Below, in pieces: positions 7,474 through 62,384 of a stretch of DNA of 64,000 bases. This DNA is from Massariosphaeria phaeospora (taxonomy: Eukaryota > Ascomycota > Dothideomycetes > Pleosporales), in NCBI GenBank assembly GCA_011032825.1, contig JAADJZ010000005.1, positions 1,927,001 to 1,991,000 on the forward strand, in the 5' to 3' direction. Numbering within the stretch: the stretch's first letter is position 1; every line of letters starts with the position of its first letter. The notes below the pieces were generated by a model. The model did no database searches and was not told the DNA's origin. It was given only the letters and a program-made list of their open reading frames with translations. A program made the position numbers and the translations under genes.

Positions 7474-9258
7474 GTGGGGGTCTAGGTGTGTTAGTGTGTA
7501 CGTACTACCTAGTGCACTGGAAGATATTGAGAGTTGTTAGCTGTGTGGTGTTCTCGGAGCGCACTTTTTGATAGGTGTTATCCTGGCTTTTCTGAGTGTA
7601 TGGTACGCCTGTTTGAAAGTATTCTCCCATTGGGTTATGGAAGGATGATCCACCAGAGGCATTGTTGGAGGATCTTTCATCATACTAGTAGGTCAGCCAT
7701 GGTTCCGTATACAGTAGTTCCCTACGCCGGATGGAGTAGCTAGGATGACAAATTGGTGGCCATAGTCGAGAAGATGTTGATTCTGCTCGGAGATGTTCCA
7801 AAATCCGAGTGTCGATTGGTCTCGAGACGGCATAGGGACTGTCAGTGAACCAAGATGTTGTTTTGCATCAGACGTGCAGAGACGCTGTATTGTGGTCAGA
7901 ACAATGCGTCCAAGCTACTTCGATAAATGTATAAGGTGGTTCGTCTGATTAATAGCGGTGATGAATCTATGCAGATATAATGAAGAACGTTCGTGGTCGA
8001 GACCCAGGCGTCAAGATGAAACAGCGAGCCGTATCCGAGCCGATGCCCGCTCTTCGGATCCGGAGCCGACACGATCAGTCCAGAAGCCGTTGCAAACCAG
8101 ATCTGCGGCCGTTGGCGCGGAGAATAAAGCCAGTCGCAGACCTTTGTACCCCTGAATCGCAACCTGCCATCAGCTTCGTTGGTGCTTGGCGCAGCGCATT
8201 CAGAAGACTCGCGATGCCTATTTTTAAAGATGACACTGCCCGGGTGCAGGCTCGGCCCGAGGGGAGTCTGTGAGGACGAGTCTATCACGGTGAGCCAGTA
8301 ATGTAGCTCAGCCTCGCTACGGAGCAGACGACGAGGTGTCGACGAGGGGCTACGCCTCTTCGCGGTAATAGTGGGAGGAGTGGGGAATTATGAGGGATGA
8401 CTGGGGCGCCGGGCGGTGACTTTGGCGGGTTGAGGAAACACTTGGCGGTAATGCGAGGTTTTGGCGGTTGGCTCGGAAGCCTTCTGCTGGGGAATAGGAC
8501 TGTTGGCAGGAGTGGAGAGGGCGAGGGGAGGTTGCAGTAATTGCAGGACGAAGAGTGCTCCGACTCCGACTTCACAACTCGGAGTGGCTCGGCGGGCGAC
8601 GCATCTATGTACGCGTACGCCAGTCAGCTCGTCAACTGCGGGACGCGCCTTCGACCTCCGCAACAGACGGGCGGCCGCGCATTGGAAGCAGCCACTGCGC
8701 CTGGAGAGGGACCTCACACAAACAAACGTGTGATCGAAGGCGCTGCGTTTGCACGACGTTGGCAGTGTGTTTGTGGACTCCAGCTGGGAGGAAGACGCAG
8801 GAGTTGACTGTTGTTCAATGACAGGCGGCCAAACTACTGGAAGACGCCGCGCGCTGCTTGCCCCAGCTTCTGAGGCAGTGCGTGCGGGCCCTGCGTGGAC
8901 AAGGGTCTCAACCTGCCTCCCCAACACCTCAACTCACCCCCCGCTGCGAATGCGAACAATCCACACACACCTGCAGACACGTTGAAGCCTCCCATCCGCT
9001 CCCGCCGCTGCACTACCACACGTCGCTCGTTCACTCCGCACGCTGTCCTCTCGCCGCCCGAAACGTGAGCCAAGCCCGGAGGCTGAGTTGTGATTCCGAC
9101 CACCCTCGAGCCTTCCCACCGCGGCCTTTCGTATACCCCCGGCGCACGCGCGAACCCAGCGGAAGCAGAGAAAGAGTGCATTCCACACTGGCTGCATGAG
9201 ACTGGACGGTGCGGGCGAGCAGCGTGGAGTCAAGCGCACGTAGACACGTTTGGCCGCC
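7474..9258. other. Intergenic, leader of the flippase gene
   Basis: No supported gene in 1.8 kb. The last 400 bases are pyrimidine-rich in places and look like promoter and 5' UTR of the P4-ATPase. Several overlapping frames of 60-180 codons on both strands are arginine- or serine-rich shadows. Confidence 0.45.
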
Positions 9259-49441: not shown

Positions 49442-51124
49442 TCTCGAGACGACCAGGGCACAATGAACTCGTAGTGGACAGAGGTAGGGGATATAAGTGT
49501 CTGGCAATTATAAATGTGTGAGGCGTTGGCCTAGATTCGAAGGGTCGCACAGCAGTAGGTGAGAGTGGGTAGCGAGATGGCTGGAGCGGAAGGCCACCTC
49601 ACTTGCCGACGACGATCGGAGGTCTTTATGAGGATGCTTGGAGCTCTAAGCGTGATTGCGTGTGAGGAAGTGACGACGCGGCCTTATCAAGCAGGGCGAA
49701 GCGGGGTGGGTGAAGGAGGTAGATAGCGACAACGACTACCACCATAGGGCAAACAAGCACCATTTGGCGAGACAGTTGGCGAAGGCCATACCAAGCCCAC
49801 CATCTCCAGAACGTACGGGGTCCTCGCGGCATTCACAGCCCGCGTGGAGGGGTTATCAGGCCCCAGGCGGAGCATCTGCAGAAGACGATCACCCTCCAAC
49901 CGCTTCAGGCCTAGCGGCGTCCTGCTGTCCGAAGTGGGTAAGGAAGTCCAGTACGCTCCGCCCATCTTGCAATTCAGTCGACTGCGCGTATATGCTCGAT
50001 GATGAACTCGACATTGGACCAGGCGCGTATCGCGGTCGGTCTAGCTGCTACCCCGCGGCCAGTTCTGCGCGTCGTTGACGGCCGTCGACTTCCGATTGCC
50101 TCATTAGGGCCAAAACTCCCGTTGACCGCCTGCCGCAGCGGTGGCGTCCTGAGCATGAAGCACTCGGGATGCAGCCGCTGGGCTAGAAGAGTGCGGACGA
50201 CCCGATACGAGGAACGGCTACGCAGGAGAGAGCGCCACAGCTGCATTCTCTCTCGCCTCCGGCCTCCGAGTGGTTCCGCTTGAGACCGTAGACGAAGATC
50301 GTGACCGCCGAAGTGCCGCGGAATGGCGTGATTGCCGGACACCTCTGGCAGAGACCCTCGTCGCCATGGGGCGCGTTATGTACGTGCAGGAGTTGGCTGC
50401 GTGGGCGTTGTCGCAAAAGGGCAGCGAGATCCACGGCTGCGTGAAAGTTGGACGGCGAAGCGTGTGTTTGATTTCAATGCTCCTGGTACAGTGGACGTCT
50501 AGCCAGATTTTATAGCAAAGGAGGTGTGATGGAGCACAACAGCTGCCGCATCATGTCAGAACGAAGAAAGAAACTCTGTCCTCGGTTGCGCTAGGCCGCA
50601 TCGAGACGAGATATCGGACTCTCGCCCGAGCGGAAACTCTGATTCGACTTCAACTCTTTCTGCAGCCTCCACACTGCATATGATACATACGGCGCAAATG
50701 ACCCTCTCGTACCAGTACCGACAGCTCTCTCGCCCAGCGGCAAAAAACTGCAAAAACATACAACAGCGGGTATTCGCCAACGGTCACCCATTTGGCTACT
50801 ACCCCGCCGGTTTGAGGCTTCATTAGCGGAGATCGAACGGGATCCAATGCTTTCCTCAACCTGTGGTCGTATGTGGAAGAGGTTGAAAATCGATTGTCTT
50901 ATATCGGTCGAGAAACTTGGGAGACGTTTCGGATTCCCTCCGCGTGGAGGAAGCGTCACACAACAACACCCGTATACGGTATATTACCGTGTGCGAGGAT
51001 ACAAGACACAAATCAAGCATCAGGGCTCTTTTATTACGTTTCGTTACTGCGCTTCTCGACCTCTTCTCCGTCCATGTACACTTGCAAGACCTCCGCAAAC
51101 TCCATATGAGATATTTGGGAATCC
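49442..51124. other. Intergenic region left of the repeat array
   Basis: No gene supported. Frames at 49710-50515 overlap in several registers with Arg/Ser/Cys-rich products. The sequence grades into the tandem array, whose first recognisable T-run begins at 51125. Confidence 0.4.
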
Positions 51125-54100
51125 TTTTTAGTAACAGATCCAGGAGGTTCACACTTTGTGAAAAGACGCAGAGACGCAGACGAGGGGCTTATATACTCGA
51201 ATGACCATCAATGAACGGCTTCGCACGCATAACCGGACAACGAGATGCTGAGACGCATATTCATCGTGTTACGTGGGATCCAGTTTTTCACTCCAACGAT
51301 GTAGCGCCATTGTCGAGCCTGCAGCATGTTTTAGCTCCTGGACGACTCCCAGTATCAGCTGCCATGGATACTTCCCAGAACCAACATGGCTGGACGACAT
51401 AGACGTTTTTCGAGCGCCAGCATCGTATCCCCGTGTAAATTTCTATGGACAAGCCCGATTTGCGAGGGGAGAAGACATGCAAGTACGTGAAGGTCCTATA
51501 CGACTAGGAATCTAAGCAAATCTGCTGGTCTTTCTACGTTTCGAATTTCTCGAGCTGACGCTTTCGATCAAGGCTTCGAGAAACATACAATTCTGCCAGT
51601 GCAGATTTTGGAAGGCAAGCCGCCCACGTGTTTTAGAGCAAGAGAATAGGAAAGGCACAGGAAAGAGGTACTTATGTACTCGGAAACTGCGCCGACACGA
51701 AGCAGCATAAACCCAGATGGTATTTTCCTCGCCTCGATAACTTTCGAACCCACCTCTGGGCACCTAGAATGCAGACCATCGAGTACAGCTGTGCGCCTCC
51801 CCTGGGACCAATCCACATGGATCATGCTGAGCACCCATTTACTCTGGTAATGAACCTCACCAGACAGTCACTATGTGTGTACAAGTTGGACAACCGCTCA
51901 GACATCCTTGGAGGTTGTGGCCTTTTTTAGTACGATCAAATTCGAGGTAAGTATTGTGAATGGGCGATTCTGACAGTGAAATAGGGAGCTTATATACCCG
52001 ATCCTCTAAGCGAAAGTTTGGCCACGTCTTTAAAGTACAGTAAATTTCGGGAGACATGAGGATACGACGAATCAATCTTAGCTTCAGACGTTCCTTGAAG
52101 TTAAAGGCGTCCTTGTCCTACACCACTCATCCCCCGCGAGGCTATGACAACGTTTCCTCAAAACATCGTATCGCGAGCTCGCAGTCGGTTGGGGTCCTAA
52201 AAGCCACGATACCACCAATCCCTAAATGAAGCTAATGCAGTGTTTTTAGAAGCGTAGCCAACGAGAACCCCTTCTCTGAGTGAAGAAGGCCACGCAGAAG
52301 CGCAAGGAAATATATATTCTCGAGTCGGCGACGAAAGACGGGACTTTCTACTCCGATTCGCAGACTGGCTCTACCACTACTCACGATATCCAGCATCGGT
52401 CTGGCAAAGCGCTGATACTCACCAACGGAGATTCCGCTCTTCCGCGCACATTATATCCCGTCCCCTGTCTTTTCGACGACGTGCTCTGCCGCCCTTTTCC
52501 ACTACAGAATTTGTTCAACTTTTATAACCACAATATACTGGGGTTTTGTTCCCTTGCTCAAGCGCCATAGTGAGTGAGCTTTTGCATTTTTAGATAGGCC
52601 ACAAGGCAGGTAGAGTGAGGTGTAGAGAAGATCTGGAAAGAGAGAAGGAAGGGGTCTTTATACTGTAGGGAGAAGCGTGTACTTTTGAGATGTGAATACT
52701 TATGAGGGGAAACAAGGTGAGTAGGTTGCGGATCGCATGATGTTGCTCACCACTATCATCTAGCTATTTTTCCCTACCAACTCAGCACCATAAGGTATTT
52801 ACATGTCAGTTTTTGAAACAATCTATCTCTATGATCAGTAATGACACTATCACAGAATCGCATCACAAGGTCCAGTATCTAAATTCATGACCTCCGAAGC
52901 ATGACGAGAACCTGCCAATCTCCGGAAAGTCATCAGGTATTGTGTCATCACTTTTTAGTCCCTAGATTGGAACTGATGCTCTGTAAGTGAGAAAACACCA
53001 AAGACAGGCGATAGAGGGCTTATCTACCTATACGCACCTGAAAAAACCAGACCGTATAGTCGGTCTCTCCATCGTTACTCCGACTCCGGCTCACAGACTC
53101 ACTAGACGGTTGCTGACAATGTGATGCTGCTCATCACTATTGGAATAAACCTACGGCCTTTGGGCACATGGGATCGCTATTGTACCATTTATAAACTTCG
53201 CTCGGTCGCTTCCACATTCGAGTCCGTATCCATGATTTCAATAGTCCTCGGACTGCACCGCTCGTGCTGTAGGAAAGAAAAGAGGAGTAGAGAATGGGGT
53301 TTATATACCCGTGCAAGGCGCATGTCTGGTGACAGCTTCAGGTTCCCTTCCTTCGAGCAGACATGGTGCTGATGTTGGTGGACACCCCATCGAACATGGT
53401 GATGCTCATCACCATGCTCTGACCCTACGATATCGTCCACGGCCGCTGCCAGCAACATTCGAGATCTTCAATGCTGCTGCAAGTCTTGATCCGGGTATGC
53501 TCCGAATACATCCAAAAGGGTCAATATTCTGTAATGTAACCCTCCACCGCTCTGGACCTTTTGTGTACTTCAATAACGGAGCACCGCACGCACCATGGGG
53601 TGATCGTCATATCGATTTTAATAACGATTCCTAGCTCTTGTGAGAAGGGAAACGAGAAGAGGAGGGGCTTAAATACCCGCGACTTAGAGAACTGGTGCTA
53701 ACCGAAGCCGGAATACATGAGCCTTATTCCCGACACCAGGCATACTTCAGGAGGCGTCGGATTCGATTCTCCAAACCGCCGCACACGTCTTCAATATCTT
53801 CCCAACACAGCATCACGTTACACCAATTGCTTCTTTCGAGATTCCACGTACTGCTCCACCACCCACACCATTTTCTTGTGTCCTGTTGGTTTTATTTGCG
53901 CCACATAACTTTTGTGTAGACTAAGAAAGAAGGAGAACGAGAAGGAGGAGACTTATACTAACTCGAGTATCAAGCCTAGGATTCAAAACACCAGGACGCA
54001 TACACATGTATGTGTCCAAAACATCCAAAACCCTCCACAATCTCATGTTCTGGATCAGACGCACCTCTCTCCGCCACAGCCAGCATACCCGAGAACCGTC

Positions 54101-57100
54101 ATTCTTTTACGCGACACATCTTCGCCCGACTATTGACGACGGTTGTTCTAGTTTTAGTTGCGCGGTATTCCGCTGCTGTGTGCGGAGTCAAGAAGGGAAG
54201 ACAGATAGAGGAAAAGAAGGGGCTTATATACGCCCGGGAGCTAACTTCTCGAGATTAGACGAAGAGTACGGCAGCAGACTGCTGATAAACGATTGTCCCC
54301 AAGAGATCGACATCCGAGTACTCCATTCGTTGATGCACAAGATCTTTTGTAGGCTACAGCACCGCTCGCACCGTCAAAGGTCCCCCATTCCCAATTTTTT
54401 CTATTTTTATCCACCTCTCGTGTGTGGAAGTAAAGACAAAGAGAGAGAGAAGAGAGTGGGACTTATATACCCACCGGCTCAGCTACAGCCCAACACCTTC
54501 ATTACACCACGCCCTGGACGTACACTCCATGAATCTAAAGACCGCGGCAACAACCGCTAATGCACATCACCACCACCGTCCGCAGTACCCTATCATCAAC
54601 CCCAAACACAGCAGTTCCTCCTATACTCCTATTCCACACCTCATCTCTCCATACAACATGAGAGGTGGCAGTTTTCGCACTTCCGCGCACTCTCTCCGCG
54701 CCCGTACCATGAAACCGGATGGTTAGTTTTTTAGACACCCATGGTCCAAAGGCGCGAAGATTACTAGACACATTACACCCTTCGCAGAAGTTTTGTAGAG
54801 GAGAAAGGAAAGGAAGGAGAGAAGAGAGGGGCTTATATACCTACGGACCTGCCCGTAAACTGACCTTTGAGACGAACATCCCGTGAAAGAGAAGGACGGT
54901 GGCGATGTGCTCCGGAGATAGTGGTGGAGGTGAGCACTGTCATTACTATCGGTCCCCCGGAAATGCACTACATATTTCCTTCCGCACCTTACTCGCTGGG
55001 CGTTATTTATTGCTTCGAATGCTCCGCACGCGACTTCTCACTCCATCGAGGTGCTGGTGATATTTTTTTTCTTCCAGACACCCATGTCACTTCAGCCTGA
55101 GTGTTTTTAGACTCGCACGCTTACGACGATGCCGTGTAAAGAAAGAAGAGGTAGAGGAGAGAAGGGAGGCGCTTATATACCCACCGACCCGCCCGCAAAT
55201 CGAATTTGAAGGTAAAAGTCCGTGAGAAAGAAACGCGGCCGTAGCGTGCTCCGGTGAAGATGCGGATCATCACTATCCCTCCTGCAGACACGTACAAACC
55301 TCCCTATACGCACTTCCGGCTAAATTGCCCGCCAGGACTTGTACTACTCACACCTCGGACCTTACACCTCGCATGTCGCACCTCTCCACGCAGCTTCTCA
55401 GATCATGAACTGCTTGACTTTTGATTTTCTTCCAGACATCCATGGACTACGACGAGAGCCATTTTTAGACTCGCACACTTACGACGATGCCGTGTAAAGA
55501 AAGGGAGCAAAGAAGAGAGAAGAGAAGGGCTTATATACCCGCAGACCCCGTCCTTCAACCACTTAGGCACTGTTAATGTATCCTCAGAACCACATGCTGG
55601 TGTGCACCATCACCATCACCGCCCTAACCCTAGAAACACACGGCCACGCTTCTCCATTCGCACCACTCAAGCCGAATTTTACTCGCACGCGCTACTTTTT
55701 AACTTCTTAATCCGAACTTCTCACACATTTTGTTGGCTAGTATTTGATTTTAGAACCATACACCTCGCCCGTGTTTTGTGAAGAAAGAAAGGCAACGGAG
55801 CAAAGAGAATAGGGGCTTATATACTCGTGGAACCGCCGCGAAAGTGGATCTCTTTGAAAGTTTATCGAAACTCCGCACGCCTTACAGTGTTAATGAGTTC
55901 TGCACATGGTTGGTAAAGATGCTCATCCTCACCAGCATATCTTCTCCCACTTCCACTTCCACACTCCAACAAGCCGTTGCTCCAGAATTTCACTCCACAC
56001 CACACGCACGCGTCGTCTCACAACATTTTCTTTTTTTCTGGATGGTTTTTAGAGTCCATACACCTCGCTGGTGTCCTGTGAAGAAAGAAAGAAGAGGGAG
56101 CAGAGACAAGAAGGGAGGGCTTATATACCCACAGTCTACTCACAAGCTAACTAATACCTGCAATACTGTCAACCTGCAACGCTCCATCAAGGTGCTTTTC
56201 AGAGATCTTGTTCTATACCTAACAGGCACGCGCCGTCTTACACCATAGGGTGAGCGATTTCCATTTTTAGACACGCATAGCATAGACCATGATCATATTT
56301 TAGACCCCACACACCCGCTGGTGTTCTGTAAATAAATAAAGAAGAGGAAGGAAAGGGGAAGATGAGGGGGCTTATATACCTGCAAACTCCCGGAAACCTG
56401 ATGCTCGCCATCACCACTAAAATCACCACTTTCTTCCTCTTGCCCTTTACCCCTTTACCCCCGCACTATTCCCCAAGAACAGTCGCATCCCCACCACGTC
56501 ATCGCAGTATTGGTATTGGCATTTAAAGCACACGCACCGCCCCACACCATACCCATATTGACAGCTCCCTTTTGGACACCCATGTAGAAGAGGTGTAGGC
56601 TTTTAGACTCCACACACCCGCTGGTGTTGTGTAAAGGAAGGAAAAAGGAAGGAAAGGAGAAGAGTGAAAAGGGGGCTTATATACCCGTAAGCTCCTCTCT
56701 AAACATACCCCTACGGTGTGCGCCGAGTACGAGAAATGATGCTCATCATCATCACTACCACCTCCCTTTCACCCCACACAAGCATTCCCGCACGCTCCTG
56801 CTCATCCACTACATACGCCCACGACAGTCTTGCTCGAAATTTCACACGCAACACGAAGTCACTCACCATGGAAGCCAATGATCGAGGTTTTTAGACACTC
56901 ATAGGATTGACACAGGTCTCAATTTAGACCCCGCAGGCCATTGCTGCTGTGAAGAGAGAAGGAGAGAGAAGAGAAGAAGGGGGCTTATATACCTCATAGA
57001 CAGTTCTCTGCACTGTCCGTCAAGGGAACCTTAATAATGCTCACCACCATCGCTTCCCTTTACTATTCCGCCAAACATGCTTACACATCCCTACCCTTTT

Positions 57101-57885
57101 TTAACTAACTCCCACACACTTCTCACCCCATAGCCACACAGTCCAATCTTTTCCAGACACCCATAGCGCACTCCCAATCGTATTTCAGACCCCGCACACC
57201 GTTGGTGCTCTGTAAAGAAAGAGAAGAAAAGAGGAAGGAGAGAAGAAGAGAGGGCTTATATACGTGCGCGAAGGCAAAGGCAAGAAAGCAGCAGATGTAA
57301 TAGTGTAAACATCTATTAATCTGTAGAGGTAGAGATACTTACTATTACTACTACTACTACTACTAACCACCATCACCACTCTTCCCTCTACCAATCCCCG
57401 CCATCACTACCTTTCTCTCTACCAACCCGCAAACACATCCGCACGCACCCACACACCCACACACCCACACTCCATCAGTGTAATCTCCAATATTTTTCAA
57501 ACACCCATAGCACAGCCCAAGCCGAATTTTAGACCCTGCACACCCTTAGTGTTCTCTGTGAAGAAAGAAGGAAAGAGAGGAAGAAGGAAGGAAGGGGGGG
57601 CTTATATACCTCCGTCTACAGAGACGGGGAAGTAGCAGACGGGACAGCAGTGAAGAGAAGATACTCACCATCAACCCCTGCCGCACACCCGCCCCTCATC
57701 ACTCCACAGCCCCATACCCCGCACGCCTAACGTTACTCTTTTCCCTTTCTTTTCCAAATCCGCACAAGCGCGCCACCCATAGAATGATGCTCGCCTGATT
57801 TTTAAAGCACCCACTTCCACTCTACCCCTCCCTATACCAACAAGAAAAAGAAAAGAGAAGAGGGGTTTTAAACATATACCCTCGC
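51125..57885 (+). repeat. Array of about 22 diverged tandem units with a CTTATATACC core
   Basis: All units share one orientation. The core (consensus GGGGCTTATATACC) starts near 51188, 51671, 51989, 52311, 52655, 53019, 53300, 53668, 53952, 54223, 54462, 54832, 55172, 55530, 55816, 56120, 56371, 56676, 56984, 57255, 57601 and 57871; spacing is 239-483 bp. Order within a unit: TTTTTAGACACCCATAG-like block; about 30 nt; TTTTAGACyCC; a 3-6 bp hairpin; TGTRAAGAAAGAAAG grading into a 30-45 nt purine tract; the core; about 45-70 nt; GATGCTCATCATCAC-like block; variable sequence. Units from 54832 to 57601 are best preserved. Those at 51671, 52311, 52655 and 57871 are degenerate. Frames through the array read the core in different phases, so conservation is at the nucleotide level. 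No transposon ends, reverse transcriptase or tRNA signature were seen. Function unknown. Confidence 0.9.
57336..57365. repeat. ACT trinucleotide run
   Basis: Six to seven near-perfect ACT units inside the array unit that follows core 57255. It replaces part of the CATCATCAC block found in other units. Confidence 0.85.
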
Positions 57886-58279: not shown

Positions 58280-61200
58280 TCAGGTCTGTTCCTCGCGCGG
58301 ACTCTTCGTGCCCGTCACGCCACGCTGCCTGCCGACCGCCATCTTCAGCGCCACGAGCTTCTCCTCCGTGACCTTAATCGCCTCGTCCATCTGGCGCTTT
58401 TTAATATCCTCATTGACAATACGGTCCTGCATCTCGTAGGCCTGGCGCATGCCGGCGCCGACACCGACAGCCGAGTGCACGCGGTCGAGCGCGACGCGCT
58501 CCTCGATCCACTTCCACAGTTCGCTTTCCTCGGTGCGCCAGATCTCCTCGTATGCGACTTGTCGCGCCGCGGGAGAGCCGTGGCTGTGGCTGTGCGAGAG
58601 GCCGCCGGCGGTGGGTGGTGCGCTGCGGAAGAACCAGCTGTAGATTAGGAGCGCGATGAGGAGGCCCATGACGGTTTGGGTGGTGACGATCAGCTCTAGG
58701 ATGTCTGCCACAGGGCCCAGGAGGCTCCGGATGGGGTCGAATAAGCCCCAGTTACTCTGTTTGGCTTGGTTCGCGGATTGTAGCGAGTGCGTTGTGGTGG
58801 CTGCGGTAGGATCGTCGGTGACGGGCACTTTCGACCGCTTCTTAGACCTCGCCCCCTTCCCTGGTACTTTTGCGGGGCCTACTTTGGCAGCAACGGCGGT
58901 CCGCAGCGACGCGGAGAGGGCGGTAGCGTAAGACATCTGGCCATCACTGGCGCCTTTTTCGATAGGCCCTAGATGTTGTTAGCTATCAGGCATTGTACAG
59001 CAGCCCACAAGGTATCGCATACCTCTCAGCCAGCTCTTCCCGCTCCACTCGACAATGAAAGTCATGATGAGTCTGGTACTGTTATTGGGTCCCCACATCA
59101 TGCAATACCTCGTCTTCGTAACGAAGATGTTCCCACTGGGCACGTCAGGGGTTTGTGTGTTGCACAACACTGTAACGGCCCTTTCTAGGTCAAACTGTTC
59201 CAGGCTCATCGAGATGTTGCATTTTGTCTGCCTGGGTCCGATACTACCAGGCAATGGCTTGATGTAAGAGTAGGTGAAGGTCTTGCTGTCTTCGCCAAGA
59301 CCCTTTTTATCGTCCTCCAATACGAGTTCTGTCGACTTCTGGTCTTCGAGAAGCCATTTGCGCATGAATATGCCCGACGCAGGACCAAACATCATAGAGT
59401 ATATCTTGCCAAGAGGTGCAGGAATGGTGGTATCGATGAGAAATTTCTCGAAATGCTGATCATTATCGCCGCACTCCGTAGGGGCATGGGTCGCTGGGCC
59501 GGGAAAGTCCTGAGCCGCGGCAGCCGCAGCAGTGGCGGCAGCCTCCATGCCATCAGTGGCTTTATTGGGTCCACTGACAGCTTGTGCTATAGTGGCACTC
59601 GCCTTCCGGATTTCGGCCGTCGTGGATCCTCGTTCGCTGCCCGCTATACTTCCTTCAGCTGTTTCCGTGAAACTTTCCATACCATCTTCTTCCTCAGCAT
59701 CTTCGTCGTAGACCTCGTCGTCCGAATCCTGAATAGTGCCATCGTCGCTACCAACCGATTCAGCTTTCTCGGTCTTGTCGCCGGTGCCGGCCGCGCCATC
59801 GAGAGCCACACCATTCAGCGAGGACTTGAGATTTGGATGTGAGATCTTCCAGATGCCGATGATCAGGTCATATGTAGAATCGCGAGAAAGAAAGGAAGCG
59901 AAAACATTGCGGGCGTGGAGAGTCTGGATGACGATCGCGTTAGGGAACACAACAGCAGTGGATTTCTTCTCCACCGTTACCACCTCATCAAAGCTTACGA
60001 CGAGATTCGTCACCCAACCTAGGATGTTGCTTGAAAAGCACAAGTGTCCCTCAGACACGTACAAACGACCCTGAAGTAAAATCTCCTTTTGGAGTGCAGC
60101 GCTGTAGTCCTCGATGAGATAGTCGTCTTCAGGGACACTCTTGAAGAGGCTGTGGAAATCTCTGTTTCGCTTCGGCGATGCTACTGCAAAACCCGTTCCA
60201 TTCAGGCGTTGTCCATTCAGCGCTGCACTGGGTGCTAGTGTCGTCGTACTGGCTCCTATGACAGCAGCGATTGTATTCCCGGTGGTCGCAGAGCTGCCCC
60301 TATGCCGTCTTCTCCGACCACCGCTTATACGACTCCGAATGCTTCCTTGCCGCTGGACTGATGCCGCTGTCGCAGGAGAATCTGTGACCTCGGACTGTCG
60401 CGGTGGTGTTGCAGCTCCGCCTGAAGCGTTAGTCAGGGCGCGTGAACGCTCGTCTCCCGAGCCTGCAGGCTTCTCCGATGCATAAGCAGCGGATACCGCC
60501 TGTGCGGCCGCAACGTCCTCGGCTTTCGCCGACACCTCGTCCGCTCGCATCGGCAAGGCCACTGTTGAGCTTTTAGGGCTGGGGTCTGTGTCTGCTATTC
60601 CAAGGTGCGCCAAGCTCAGATCTCCCGATCCGAGAGTCTCGACGGCAGGTCTTCGCTTCTCCGCCCCGGTTGTCTCAGTAGGTCCGTGACCGTCCTCTGG
60701 CCCAATGACTTCTTCACCACCGGCGTCCCCTGATTGCTTGAGTTCGGCGTTCTGCTGCTGGTTACCGGTTTTGTTCTTATTAATTGGCGTGTTGTTAGCG
60801 ATAGTAGTGCTTAAAGTGTTAGCAGCGTTTTGCGCTGCAGAAAATACAGATGAGAAAAATCCGCTAGGAGACTGGGGCACGTCGGTACCTCCTGGTGTCT
60901 TTACTTCTTCGAGGGTTGGTGTTAAAGGTGCTGACATGGAATTGGATAGTCTACTAGGGGGATTCGTGGCTGAGCGCGCTCGTCGGTGCGATATCATGTT
61001 ACCAGAAGGTGAGACGACAACATGAGGATTTGGGGGCGGAGCGTTCTGTTTGGCACCAGTTTTGGCACTCGCAGTGGATTCCGTGGGAAGGGGTGGAGGT
61101 TTCGCATCCGTGGGCGTGGGAGGTGTCACCAAGGTCGTCGGAGCGTCGTCCGAGTTGGGTGGAGTGGACGGGATTTGCGTTAGAATCCTCTTCGGCGCAC

Positions 61201-62384
61201 TCGAAGGGAGTACGGGAGTCGATTGAGTCTCTGCGCCGTCATGGATTTGTGTGCCCGAACCCTCCAGCACCCTAGGTCCGGCCCGTTTGCCGCCAAAAAG
61301 CGCACCCAACGCAGCTCCGCCAGCGGGCCTACCACTGTCCGTATCTTTCGCTTGAGTAGCCCTCCGGATGGGGGCGAACGCCTCCTTCAGCTTGCCCACT
61401 GACGATGTACCTCGCTGACTGCTTTCGGCCCCGGCGTTGGCTGTGGTGGAGTGCGGAGCGGGCGCTTCCCCGGCGGATGTAGCGGAATCGACGAGCGTCG
61501 TGTCCGAGGGAGAGTCGACCGTCTCGGAGGCAATCAGGGGCGAGGAGAGGGTGAGAAAGGCGGCGTGTGAGTGATGCGGCGAGATGCCTGGACGCACTGG
61601 AGCAGAGCTGTGACCGGTTAGCGGTGACGCGCAAGCCGAGTGCGTAGCACCGGGCGTCGGGTCATGGACAAAGAAAGAGTCCGGAATAAATAATAATGCA
61701 GCGGTATCACAAAAAATAGGAGATGGCAATGGGAGCGAGTGTGCACAGGTCCGCCATGTATGCGGCCGTGGTGCGCGGTGGGGGAGCTGGGGGGGGAAGC
61801 TGGCCAGAACGGCGTCGTGGTCCGCAGTGCGTCAGAGCTTCTCTTCGCCGTGCACTGGAACCCCGCCGGTCCACTGCAGCGTCGGCGCAGACGGGTTGGA
61901 AGAACCACGGCCGAGAGACTGAGAGGACTTACTTTTCTGCATCCGAGTCCTCAGTCAGAAGACTGCTGGCAACGCTCTTGGCCAGCCCAATCGACTCTTC
62001 GCTCTGGAACTGCGAGTCCTGGAACAGCGGCGGCCTGTCTGGCAGAGGAGGGATGCTTTCGGTCGAGTCGGCCTGCGATAGGTCGTCCTGGACCGATTTC
62101 CTCCGTCTACGGCCCTTGAACAGCTTCGAGATACGGCGCCGGTGCGACGTCTCGCCCTGGTCGTCCTCGGAGTCGCGACGCCGGAACTTATCCAGCGCCC
62201 CGTCGCCAGACGACTGCAAATCGCTCGCTGCGTCGCCGCGACTGCCTCCGCTGGCAAGTGAGACTGCCGACGAGCTGAAGCCGCCCCTGGAGCCCTTGCG
62301 CGTCCCGGGGGCCGCCAGGGAGTTCTCTCTGCTGGACTGCCCGACCGAGGGCGTGACGCTGCGTGCGCGCTCCGAGGCTGCCAT
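58280..62384 (-). CDS. GRAM-VASt sterol-transfer protein (LAM/Ysp2 type)
   Basis: Three exons: 62384-61933, 61607-59023, 58968-58280; phases 2 and 1 agree, 1241 residues. Intron 1 is long (325 nt) but ends in a canonical CTAAC...TCACAG. Intron 2 (54 nt) joins EWSGKSWLRG to PIEKGASDGQ. The first 600 residues are disordered and Ser/Pro-rich. The GRAM/PH-like domain, about 630-745, has FHSLFKSVPEDDYLIEDYS, GRLYVSEGHLCFSSNILGW and FASFLSRDSTYDLI. The VASt sterol-binding domain, about 865-1015, has FEKFLIDTTIPAPLGKIYSMM and YCMMWGPNNSTRLIMTF. One membrane helix near 1100-1125 (TVMGLLIALLIYSWFF) is followed by a C-terminal coiled segment. LAM proteins sit at ER contact sites and move ergosterol between ER and plasma membrane or vacuole. 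Confidence 0.93.

Follow-up and report, generated by a model that had tools for sequence, protein, structure and literature searches.

The window—the whole 64-kb stretch of DNA analysed here—contains a tandem array of short units on its minus strand, which are read as putative tandem Pol II initiation modules that would fire short non-coding RNAs; as judged from sequence, this reading has about an even chance of being right. The units carry ordered elements at defined spacing, point in one direction, and are spread through the genome. They hold no ORFs beyond control length, mostly lie downstream of gene-sized ORFs of the same direction, and decay along a gradient away from these ORFs.

The array of the window

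The core of the unit consists of 14 bases (GGGGCTTATATACC on the plus strand) and has 20 matches in the window at up to three mismatches—3.1 being expected by chance—a number reached in 0 of 100 shuffles. Seventeen of the 20 matches are located at 51184–57610, all of them on the plus strand. The sequence-only profile R1, built from 64 aligned modules of which four come from the window (modules 4, 7, 9, and 18), finds 20 modules at E ≤ 1. All are on the minus strand between 51101 and 57611, the weakest having an E-value of 2.4e-4 (64-kb window), and the remaining 57 kb of the window contain zero R1 matches at E ≤ 1. The tandem array reported by the initial annotation is real and, within the window, confined to this region (Table 1). 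The modules follow one another at a spacing of 239–483 bp with a single exception of 655; this gap contains no clear core, the best candidate having 4 mismatches of 12. With the degenerate core at the gene-proximal end, the unit count is 20–21. The earlier figure of about 22 units comes near to this count, and the spacing given with it holds apart from the 655 gap.

Within the array, TRF lists only one CACACACC stretch (57442–57470). A young satellite, the units of which would be alike over their whole length, was rejected: The TRF list has no such array, and alignments between arrays give 33% identity over the 58 nt of spacer that precede the core. Core positions 6–12 are 94–100% conserved in 182 units, though this is partly a selection effect because the units were collected via the core. 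The initial description of short ordered blocks kept amid diverged spacers agrees with these observations. The RIP indices are 0.93 and 1.06 for the array versus 0.73 and 1.16 for the first 50 kb of the window; the values of the array may reflect mild RIP or simply AT-richness.

Table 1. Positions of the array, its modules, and associated features in the window
Feature	Position	Strand	Remark
Whole array	51099..57885	(-), likely functional strand	Gene-proximal end 57885, distal end 51099
Upstream neighbour gene, GRAM + VASt type	58280..61831	(-)	PF16016, PF02893 in 950-aa ORF; 3′ end faces array
Degenerate gene-proximal core	57862-57881	(-)	Read directly; 3 mismatches of 12 at 57862-57873; not found by R1
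Module 1	57525..57611	(-)	TATA core, CT tract, initiator, hairpin, CTAAAA, N18, ATGG; R1 38.0 bits, E 5.9e-11
Module 2	57187..57265	(-)	R1 35.8 bits
Module 3	56900..56994	(-)	R1 41.3 bits
Module 4	56579..56686	(-)	R1 51.3 bits; training-set member
Module 5	56276..56381	(-)	R1 47.1 bits
Module 6	56031..56130	(-)	R1 45.5 bits
Module 7	55724..55826	(-)	R1 44.2 bits; training-set member
Module 8	55439..55540	(-)	R1 43.4 bits
Module 9	55081..55182	(-)	R1 46.9 bits; training-set member
Module 10	54765..54842	(-)	R1 36.2 bits
Module 11	54398..54472	(-)	R1 30.0 bits
Module 12	54141..54233	(-)	R1 34.7 bits
Module 13 (decayed)	53867..53957	(-)	R1 17.9 bits
Module 14 (decayed)	53591..53678	(-)	R1 16.8 bits
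Module 15 (partial match)	53266..53310	(-)	R1 23.3 bits
Module 16	52930..53029	(-)	R1 22.1 bits
Module 17	52563..52654	(-)	R1 30.7 bits
Module 18	51901..51999	(-)	R1 30.4 bits; training-set member
Module 19 (decayed)	51583..51681	(-)	R1 18.2 bits
Module 20, distal end	51101..51198	(-)	R1 25.5 bits
Rigid element (TCT)AAAA-N-ATGG of module 4	56580..56604	(-)	
M1 of module 4	56738..56756	(-)	17 of 19 positions; motif from EM over 182 units
Further M1 copies	57660-57678, 56400-56418, 55918-55936, 55599-55617	(-)	14-17 of 19
Further M1 copies, continued	55259-55277, 54559-54577, 53401-53419, 53123-53141	(-)	14-17 of 19

Spread through the genome

The array of the window, which corresponds to C45:1927001–1991000, is one among many in this genome of 42.08 Mb in 51 contigs, which belongs to the Pleosporales. 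A unit profile and a genome-wide search, as proposed in the initial annotation, yielded many further arrays in this genome, mostly just downstream of gene-sized ORFs. The core has 202 genome-wide matches at up to one mismatch versus 8 with the reversed control. The composite TATATAAGCCC-N36–66-CTAAAA occurs 99 times as an exact match, one core in C51 being counted twice, versus 0 for the reversed pattern. Merged within 10 kb, the 99 matches form 43 places on 17 contigs; 21 of the 43 hold at least two matches, and at 17 of these 21 all matches are on one strand. The profile search over 331 kb—the window and 28 stretches chosen for holding the core—at thresholds of E ≤ 1 in the window and E ≤ 0.01 elsewhere resulted in 279 modules, namely the 20 of the window plus 45 and 214. 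The 45 come from nine stretches unused in profile building, of which seven have at least one module; R1 finds no modules in L013 and L036, both outside the training set. The rows reach up to approximately two dozen units, and they occupy approximately 20 or more places in the genome. Among the open-access papers listed, none was recognised as describing such arrays, which is not proof of absence from print.

The window encodes a DNA polymerase IV-type protein (P0002) with 70% identity to a protein of Trematosphaeria pertusa (Pleosporales), and the other names recognised among the 120 listed matches are also Pleosporales. An IMG/VR scan gave five matches, which were judged by estimate to be due to chance.

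Anatomy of the module

Read on the minus strand, the module consists of a RTGRTGRTGAGCATC-type site, approximately 50 nt, GGTATATAAGCCCC, a CT tract, TACA or CACA, a short hairpin, TCTAAAA, 17–20 nt, and ATGG. The core GGGGCTTATATACC is on the opposite strand the TATA-type GGTATATAAGCCCC, and the array probably functions in the reverse of the direction in which it had originally been read. The upstream site M1 has the consensus GGTGGTGATGATGAGCATC and was called in 161–163 of 182 units by EM at widths of 18–24. It starts approximately 70 nt before the core, leaving a gap of approximately 50 nt. In the window, M1 matches at 14–17 of 19 positions in 9 of 20 modules and at 10–13 of 19 in the remaining 11; at least 14 of 19 is reached in 0.65% of random 200-nt pieces. 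At the same threshold, M1 lies ahead of 7 of the 22 modules that come first on the gene side and of 103 of the 208 that follow (random 140-nt pieces, 0.3%). Since it lies ahead of some first modules, M1 is, where present, taken as part of the promoter and not of the preceding transcript.

The CT tract after TATATAAG has a length of approximately 30 nt and a C+T content of 77–85%. A YACA with its A at +36 to +55 from the core start is present in 121 of 182 modules versus 25 of 182 at +60 to +79. It peaks at +40 to +51, mostly 40–50 nt after TATA, and 61 of the 182 modules have no YACA within the expected stretch. Of the 182 modules, all preselected for [C/A]TAAA at +50 to +97, 175 have a W[C/A]TAAAA that starts between +60 and +83. 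From the start of [C/A]TAAA, the ATG begins 24–26 nt downstream in 133, 21–27 nt in 159, and 21–29 nt in 160 of the 182 modules, the control distances of 34–36 nt and 14–16 nt occurring in 4 and 10. After the ATG, the strand is G/T-rich; the GC skew changes sign at the ATG, from C-rich before it to G-rich after it, and remains positive to about +150.

At A. nidulans start sites mapped by 5′-end sequencing, 21% of the "tight" sites have a putative TATA 30–45 nt upstream; a pyrimidine-rich stretch spans −50 to +25, and CA is located at the start itself (PMC4046813). The modules feature the TATA, the pyrimidine tract, and the Y-A start motif of a TATA-type fungal core promoter as described in PMC4046813. 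This layout, together with the hairpin tied to the start and with M1, leads to the reading of the unit as a Pol II initiation module. A cluster of promoters had been among the initial candidates. New relative to the initial annotation are the TATA box, which the core represents when read from the opposite strand, and the ordered promoter-leader module formed by the unit.

Hairpin between initiator and CTAAAA

An early window-based scan of folding yielded no more than a diffuse signal, which was sharpened by anchoring. The native halves of the hairpin between initiator and CTAAAA are more stable than arm-swapped chimeras by −0.80 ± 0.21 kcal/mol (p = 0.0013, n = 182), and a swap of arms within the same array yields −0.76 ± 0.21 (p = 0.002, n = 167). 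The hairpin gain at the best split, several splits having been tried, amounts to −1.04 ± 0.24 (p = 5e-4, n = 160). At first elements, the gain is −1.02 ± 0.24 (p = 0.002, n = 161) but +0.14 ± 0.15 at later AAAA-ATG pairs (n = 248), which ties the hairpin to the start site; none of the control windows has a significant folding gain. The difference between the gene strand and the opposite strand is not significant (p = 0.19 and 0.45; antisense −0.87 ± 0.21), so that an RNA hairpin and a DNA palindrome are both possible.

M1, a GATG..CATC block, was tried as a second hairpin and rejected: Its arms form 4.626 observed versus 4.625 shuffled pairs, and because they lack covariation, M1 is regarded as a sequence motif. 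For the structured RNA once considered for the array, support is weak, in that one 5′-proximal hairpin shows modest covariation, whereas the palindrome-like M1 block shows none. Tandem genes for small structured RNAs were rejected on these grounds, the one hairpin being short and weakly covarying, and on the lack of an Rfam family where scanned.

The rigid AAAA–ATG pair

The minus strand of the window carries 29 distinct AAAA-N17–20-ATG[GT] elements from 51102 to 57803. Counts of AAAA-N-ATG[GT] on the array strand, in which long A runs enter more than once, are 117, 226, 214, and 78 at N = 17, 18, 19, and 20, with all remaining N in the range 5–44 giving 12–38. The opposite strand has 18, 25, 21, and 14 at N = 17–20 versus 3–13 at others. 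Genome-wide, TCTAAAA-N17–20-ATGG is found 165 times versus 60 times for the reversed control. The gaps between successive pairs peak at 45–49 nt (25) and 50–54 nt (16), and in one stretch (L019), long runs of AAAA-N-ATG pairs are located behind few promoters. The AAAA-N17–20-ATG pair is not known as a promoter part. Its rigid spacing resembles that of protein-bound DNA more than that of flexible RNA, which counts against the reading as Pol II modules.

CTAAAA-N18-ATGG, repeated at approximately 45–55 bp, could instead be a putative protein site of a DNA platform—a barrier, insulator, or organiser downstream of genes—which the promoter part merely serves. Such a platform would account for the sharp excess at N = 17–20 on the array strand, the two gap peaks, and the long runs in L019. 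It is nevertheless quite unlikely, given that in most arrays the first pair occupies a fixed place behind the promoter-like module (160 of 182) and that the pair was not recognised as a known binding motif.

Coding capacity and known RNAs

The conserved ATG lies approximately 50 nt past the presumed start site. ORFs beginning with it have a median length of 18.5 aa versus 17 and 17 aa in shifted frames (n = 100), and its context is not start-codon-like, with A at −3 in 21% of 160. An array of peptide or protein-coding genes was rejected because its frames do not stay open further than controls, and the absence of a conserved protein noted at the outset stands. Rfam has zero families at gathering score in the array of the window and 10 of the 28 stretches, and the earlier statement that no family matches holds at this scope. 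A sub-threshold match to sR35 snoRNA scores 16.5 bits versus the required 60 (E 1.6). The window and the 28 stretches contain no tRNA. The conserved ATG downstream of the presumed start would fit units that are relics of genes, either protein-coding or of a known small-RNA family, or that form an ordinary satellite; the frame lengths, the −3 position, the negative tRNA and Rfam scans, and an AAAA-ATG spacing that shifts by single nucleotides make this highly improbable.

Introns, spliced-leader exons, U6-like genes, an Sm site plus stem-loop, Helitron ends, and hammerhead retrozymes were rejected, the logos having no match to the respective consensus. Linkage to 5S was rejected as well: A 5S gene is located at 50755–50874, and just 1 of 21 genomic 5S genes lies within 10 kb of an array place, as judged by eye. 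No 3′-end signal for a short RNA was identified.

Neighbouring genes and polarity

The straight translation of the gene neighbouring the array of the window has one stop between two ORFs, perhaps an intron. For 22 arrays with at least four cores, the neighbour was taken as the longest ORF that reaches 200 aa and lies within 3.5 kb, which is not proof of a gene. On the M1 side, this ORF has the direction of the array in 15 of 22 cases and the opposite direction in 3, with 4 arrays lacking such an ORF; the corresponding numbers for the far side are 5, 8, and 9. One ORF of L026 is counted twice, on the proximal side of one array and on the distal side of a second. Concerning the three opposed cases, a Pirin ORF in array direction adjoins the array in L027, a DUF6570 ORF is found in L014, and the flank in L009 is just 1.1 kb. 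Pfam families were assigned to 12 of 20 flanking ORFs scanned and to none of the other 8: VASt/GRAM, PXA nexin, Lon, MatE, two Fungal_trans, RTC4, SDR, an eIF-5A-like protein, Pirin, DUF7223, and DUF6570.

The location of most arrays 3′ of gene-sized ORFs, in the same direction, would also suit tandem RNA 3′-end or terminator signals of the upstream gene, with UAUAUA as efficiency element, CUAAAA as positioning element, cleavage at the YA of YATG, and a GU-rich downstream part. Poly(A) signals are laid out as an efficiency element, an A-rich positioning element, cleavage at YA, and a GU-rich downstream part, and the order and spacing of the elements are similar to this. However, the first clean core is 219–1021 nt beyond the ORF end used (15 loci), and the usual fungal 3′ UTR is often shorter than these distances. 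Nor do poly(A) signals feature a CT tract, a YACA peak, a 19-nt site such as M1, or a near-fixed distance to ATGG, and terminator signals are considered very unlikely.

Core mismatches become more numerous with distance from the gene-proximal end (Spearman 0.20, p = 0.001 over all units and 0.28, p = 4e-5 when the end units are left out), the per-array rho being positive in 16 of 21 arrays and negative in 5. In the window, the 12 gene-proximal modules have R1 scores of 30–51 bits versus 17–31 bits for the 8 distal ones, three and one of which, respectively, are training members. Adjacent units are more alike than units from different arrays.

The decay gradient is equally compatible with repeats multiplying near gene ends for their own sake. 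A self-amplifying tandem repeat might need a working promoter for its own duplication, with transcription or replication conflict at the 3′ ends of genes; this is unlikely. On this view, the core would be kept since only live promoters get copied, without use to the host. The mismatch gradient from gene-proximal to distal, the likeness of neighbouring units, and flanking ORFs from unrelated families are as expected for such a repeat. Against it, no transposon gene of its own, terminal repeats, or target-site duplication were recognised by reading alone—the L014 flank having its DUF6570 ORF—and M1 and the rigid AAAA-N18-ATG have no obvious copying role.

Proposed mechanism

In the preferred reading as Pol II initiation modules, each unit would be a self-contained module, arranged head to tail with the next and composed of the M1 upstream site (RTGRTGRTGRTGAGCATC type), the TATA box TATATAAG, the CT-rich tract, and the Y-A-C-A initiator. 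The leader would be able to fold a short cap-proximal hairpin, followed by the rigid, often recurring CTAAAA-N18-ATGG. Transcribed by Pol II, the short non-coding RNAs would leave the 3′ end of the neighbour gene in the same direction as the gene. New units would arise on the gene side of the arrays, the opposite end being the one that decays, and selection presumably sees the RNA or the act of transcription. Besides the rigid pair, several observations weigh against this reading: M1 is located ahead of just 7 of 22 first modules, 61 of 182 modules lack the YACA, TATA and YACA are slightly further apart than in A. nidulans, the hairpin shows no significant preference for the gene strand, and a 3′-end signal for a short RNA was not identified.

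The arrays may constitute a new class of eukaryotic element: dispersed rows of Pol II modules that grow and decay just behind unrelated genes, each module yielding a short non-coding RNA that bears a cap-proximal hairpin, and carrying a rigid two-part CTAAAA-N18-ATGG site for a putative factor. This classification is tentative, the balance leaning somewhat against it. If the modules are transcribed, hundreds of strong-looking promoters would be spent on RNA without recognisable coding, mostly behind genes, and the growth-and-decay gradient would allow for dating of the process. The arrays would then provide a natural system for promoter multiplication, the upkeep of non-coding initiation, and the reader of a directional 25-bp site—with the rigid downstream pair as the best handle on this putative protein reader. 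The module profile can be used for annotating related genomes, in which arrays may pass as unannotated intergenic DNA.

Comparison with known systems

The nearest known architecture appears to be that of repeated rDNA spacer promoters, from which the arrays would differ in polymerase and place. The spacer promoters of rDNA are Pol I promoters. Their repeats likewise line up copies of a core promoter head to tail within non-coding spacer, as described for Drosophila (PMC1215480). They copy the rRNA promoter within the rDNA, whereas the arrays described here are putatively of Pol II type and scattered over tens of places with unrelated genes as neighbours. A location in rDNA spacers was rejected: The protein families in 12 of 20 flanking ORFs include no ribosomal RNA neighbour, and the 5S genes, with 1 of 21 near an array place, show no such association.

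Tandem arrays of small-RNA genes (snRNA, spliced-leader, 5S) have their own promoter per unit and possibly a 5′ hairpin, and both features may be shared by the modules. Unlike in these arrays, the downstream sequence is not conserved here, with no fixed RNA and no Rfam match where scanned. Interspersed satellites and minisatellites are likewise tandem, locally more alike, and variable in copy number; in contrast to these, the spacers have diverged to background while the short blocks are ordered and near-identical.

The TATA-type Pol II core promoters of Pezizomycotina, represented by A. nidulans (PMC4046813), have TATA, pyrimidine tract, and Y-A start in common with the modules. The TATA–YACA distance is slightly longer here than the 30–45 nt given there for A. 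nidulans. Compared with these promoters, the modules form arrays with no recognisable gene behind each and feature, in addition, M1 and CTAAAA-N18-ATGG.

Base composition and surroundings of the window array

The array of promoter-like modules (window 51125–57885) carries, on the + strand, more C than G and more A than T, with the skew peaking at 54–58 kb. Its GC content is below that of the flanks, and its RIP indices are shifted (0.93 and 1.06 vs 0.73 and 1.16 in the window's first 50 kb). A 5S rRNA gene lies next to it (table), one of 21 dispersed in the genome; compared by eye, none of the others is within 10 kb of any array listed.

Features adjoining arrays
Feature	Location	Strand	Remarks
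5S rRNA gene	window 50755–50874	-	79.6 bits; adjoins the array's distal end
DUF6570 ORF	L014:6035–7825	+	adjoins the array, opposite direction to it

Core-bearing stretches outside the window

The DUF6570 ORF is possibly a mobile element. In L019:4500–6700 (-), a run of subunits of tens of nucleotides each, with few promoters in front, features AAAA-N18-ATG in many subunits and recurring strings such as GGCTGTTTGGACTGCGAAAA; this run is a second level of tandem repetition. Similar subunits in L011:1600–3300 (-) are centred on TTGGACT..GCAGTGAG, placed between the ATG and the following AAAA. At L013:4984, one TATATAAGCCCC stands alone approximately 117 nt upstream of the ATG opening a 76-aa ORF; the module profile does not match there, and the site may be an ordinary gene promoter sharing the arrays' TATA box.

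Runs of opposite direction converge in L028:3059–5762 (approximately 110 bases core to core) and point apart in L029:4560–7687 (approximately 640 bases between them). A single array unit in L021 contains a near-palindromic insert (8213–8556), a MITE-like foldback.
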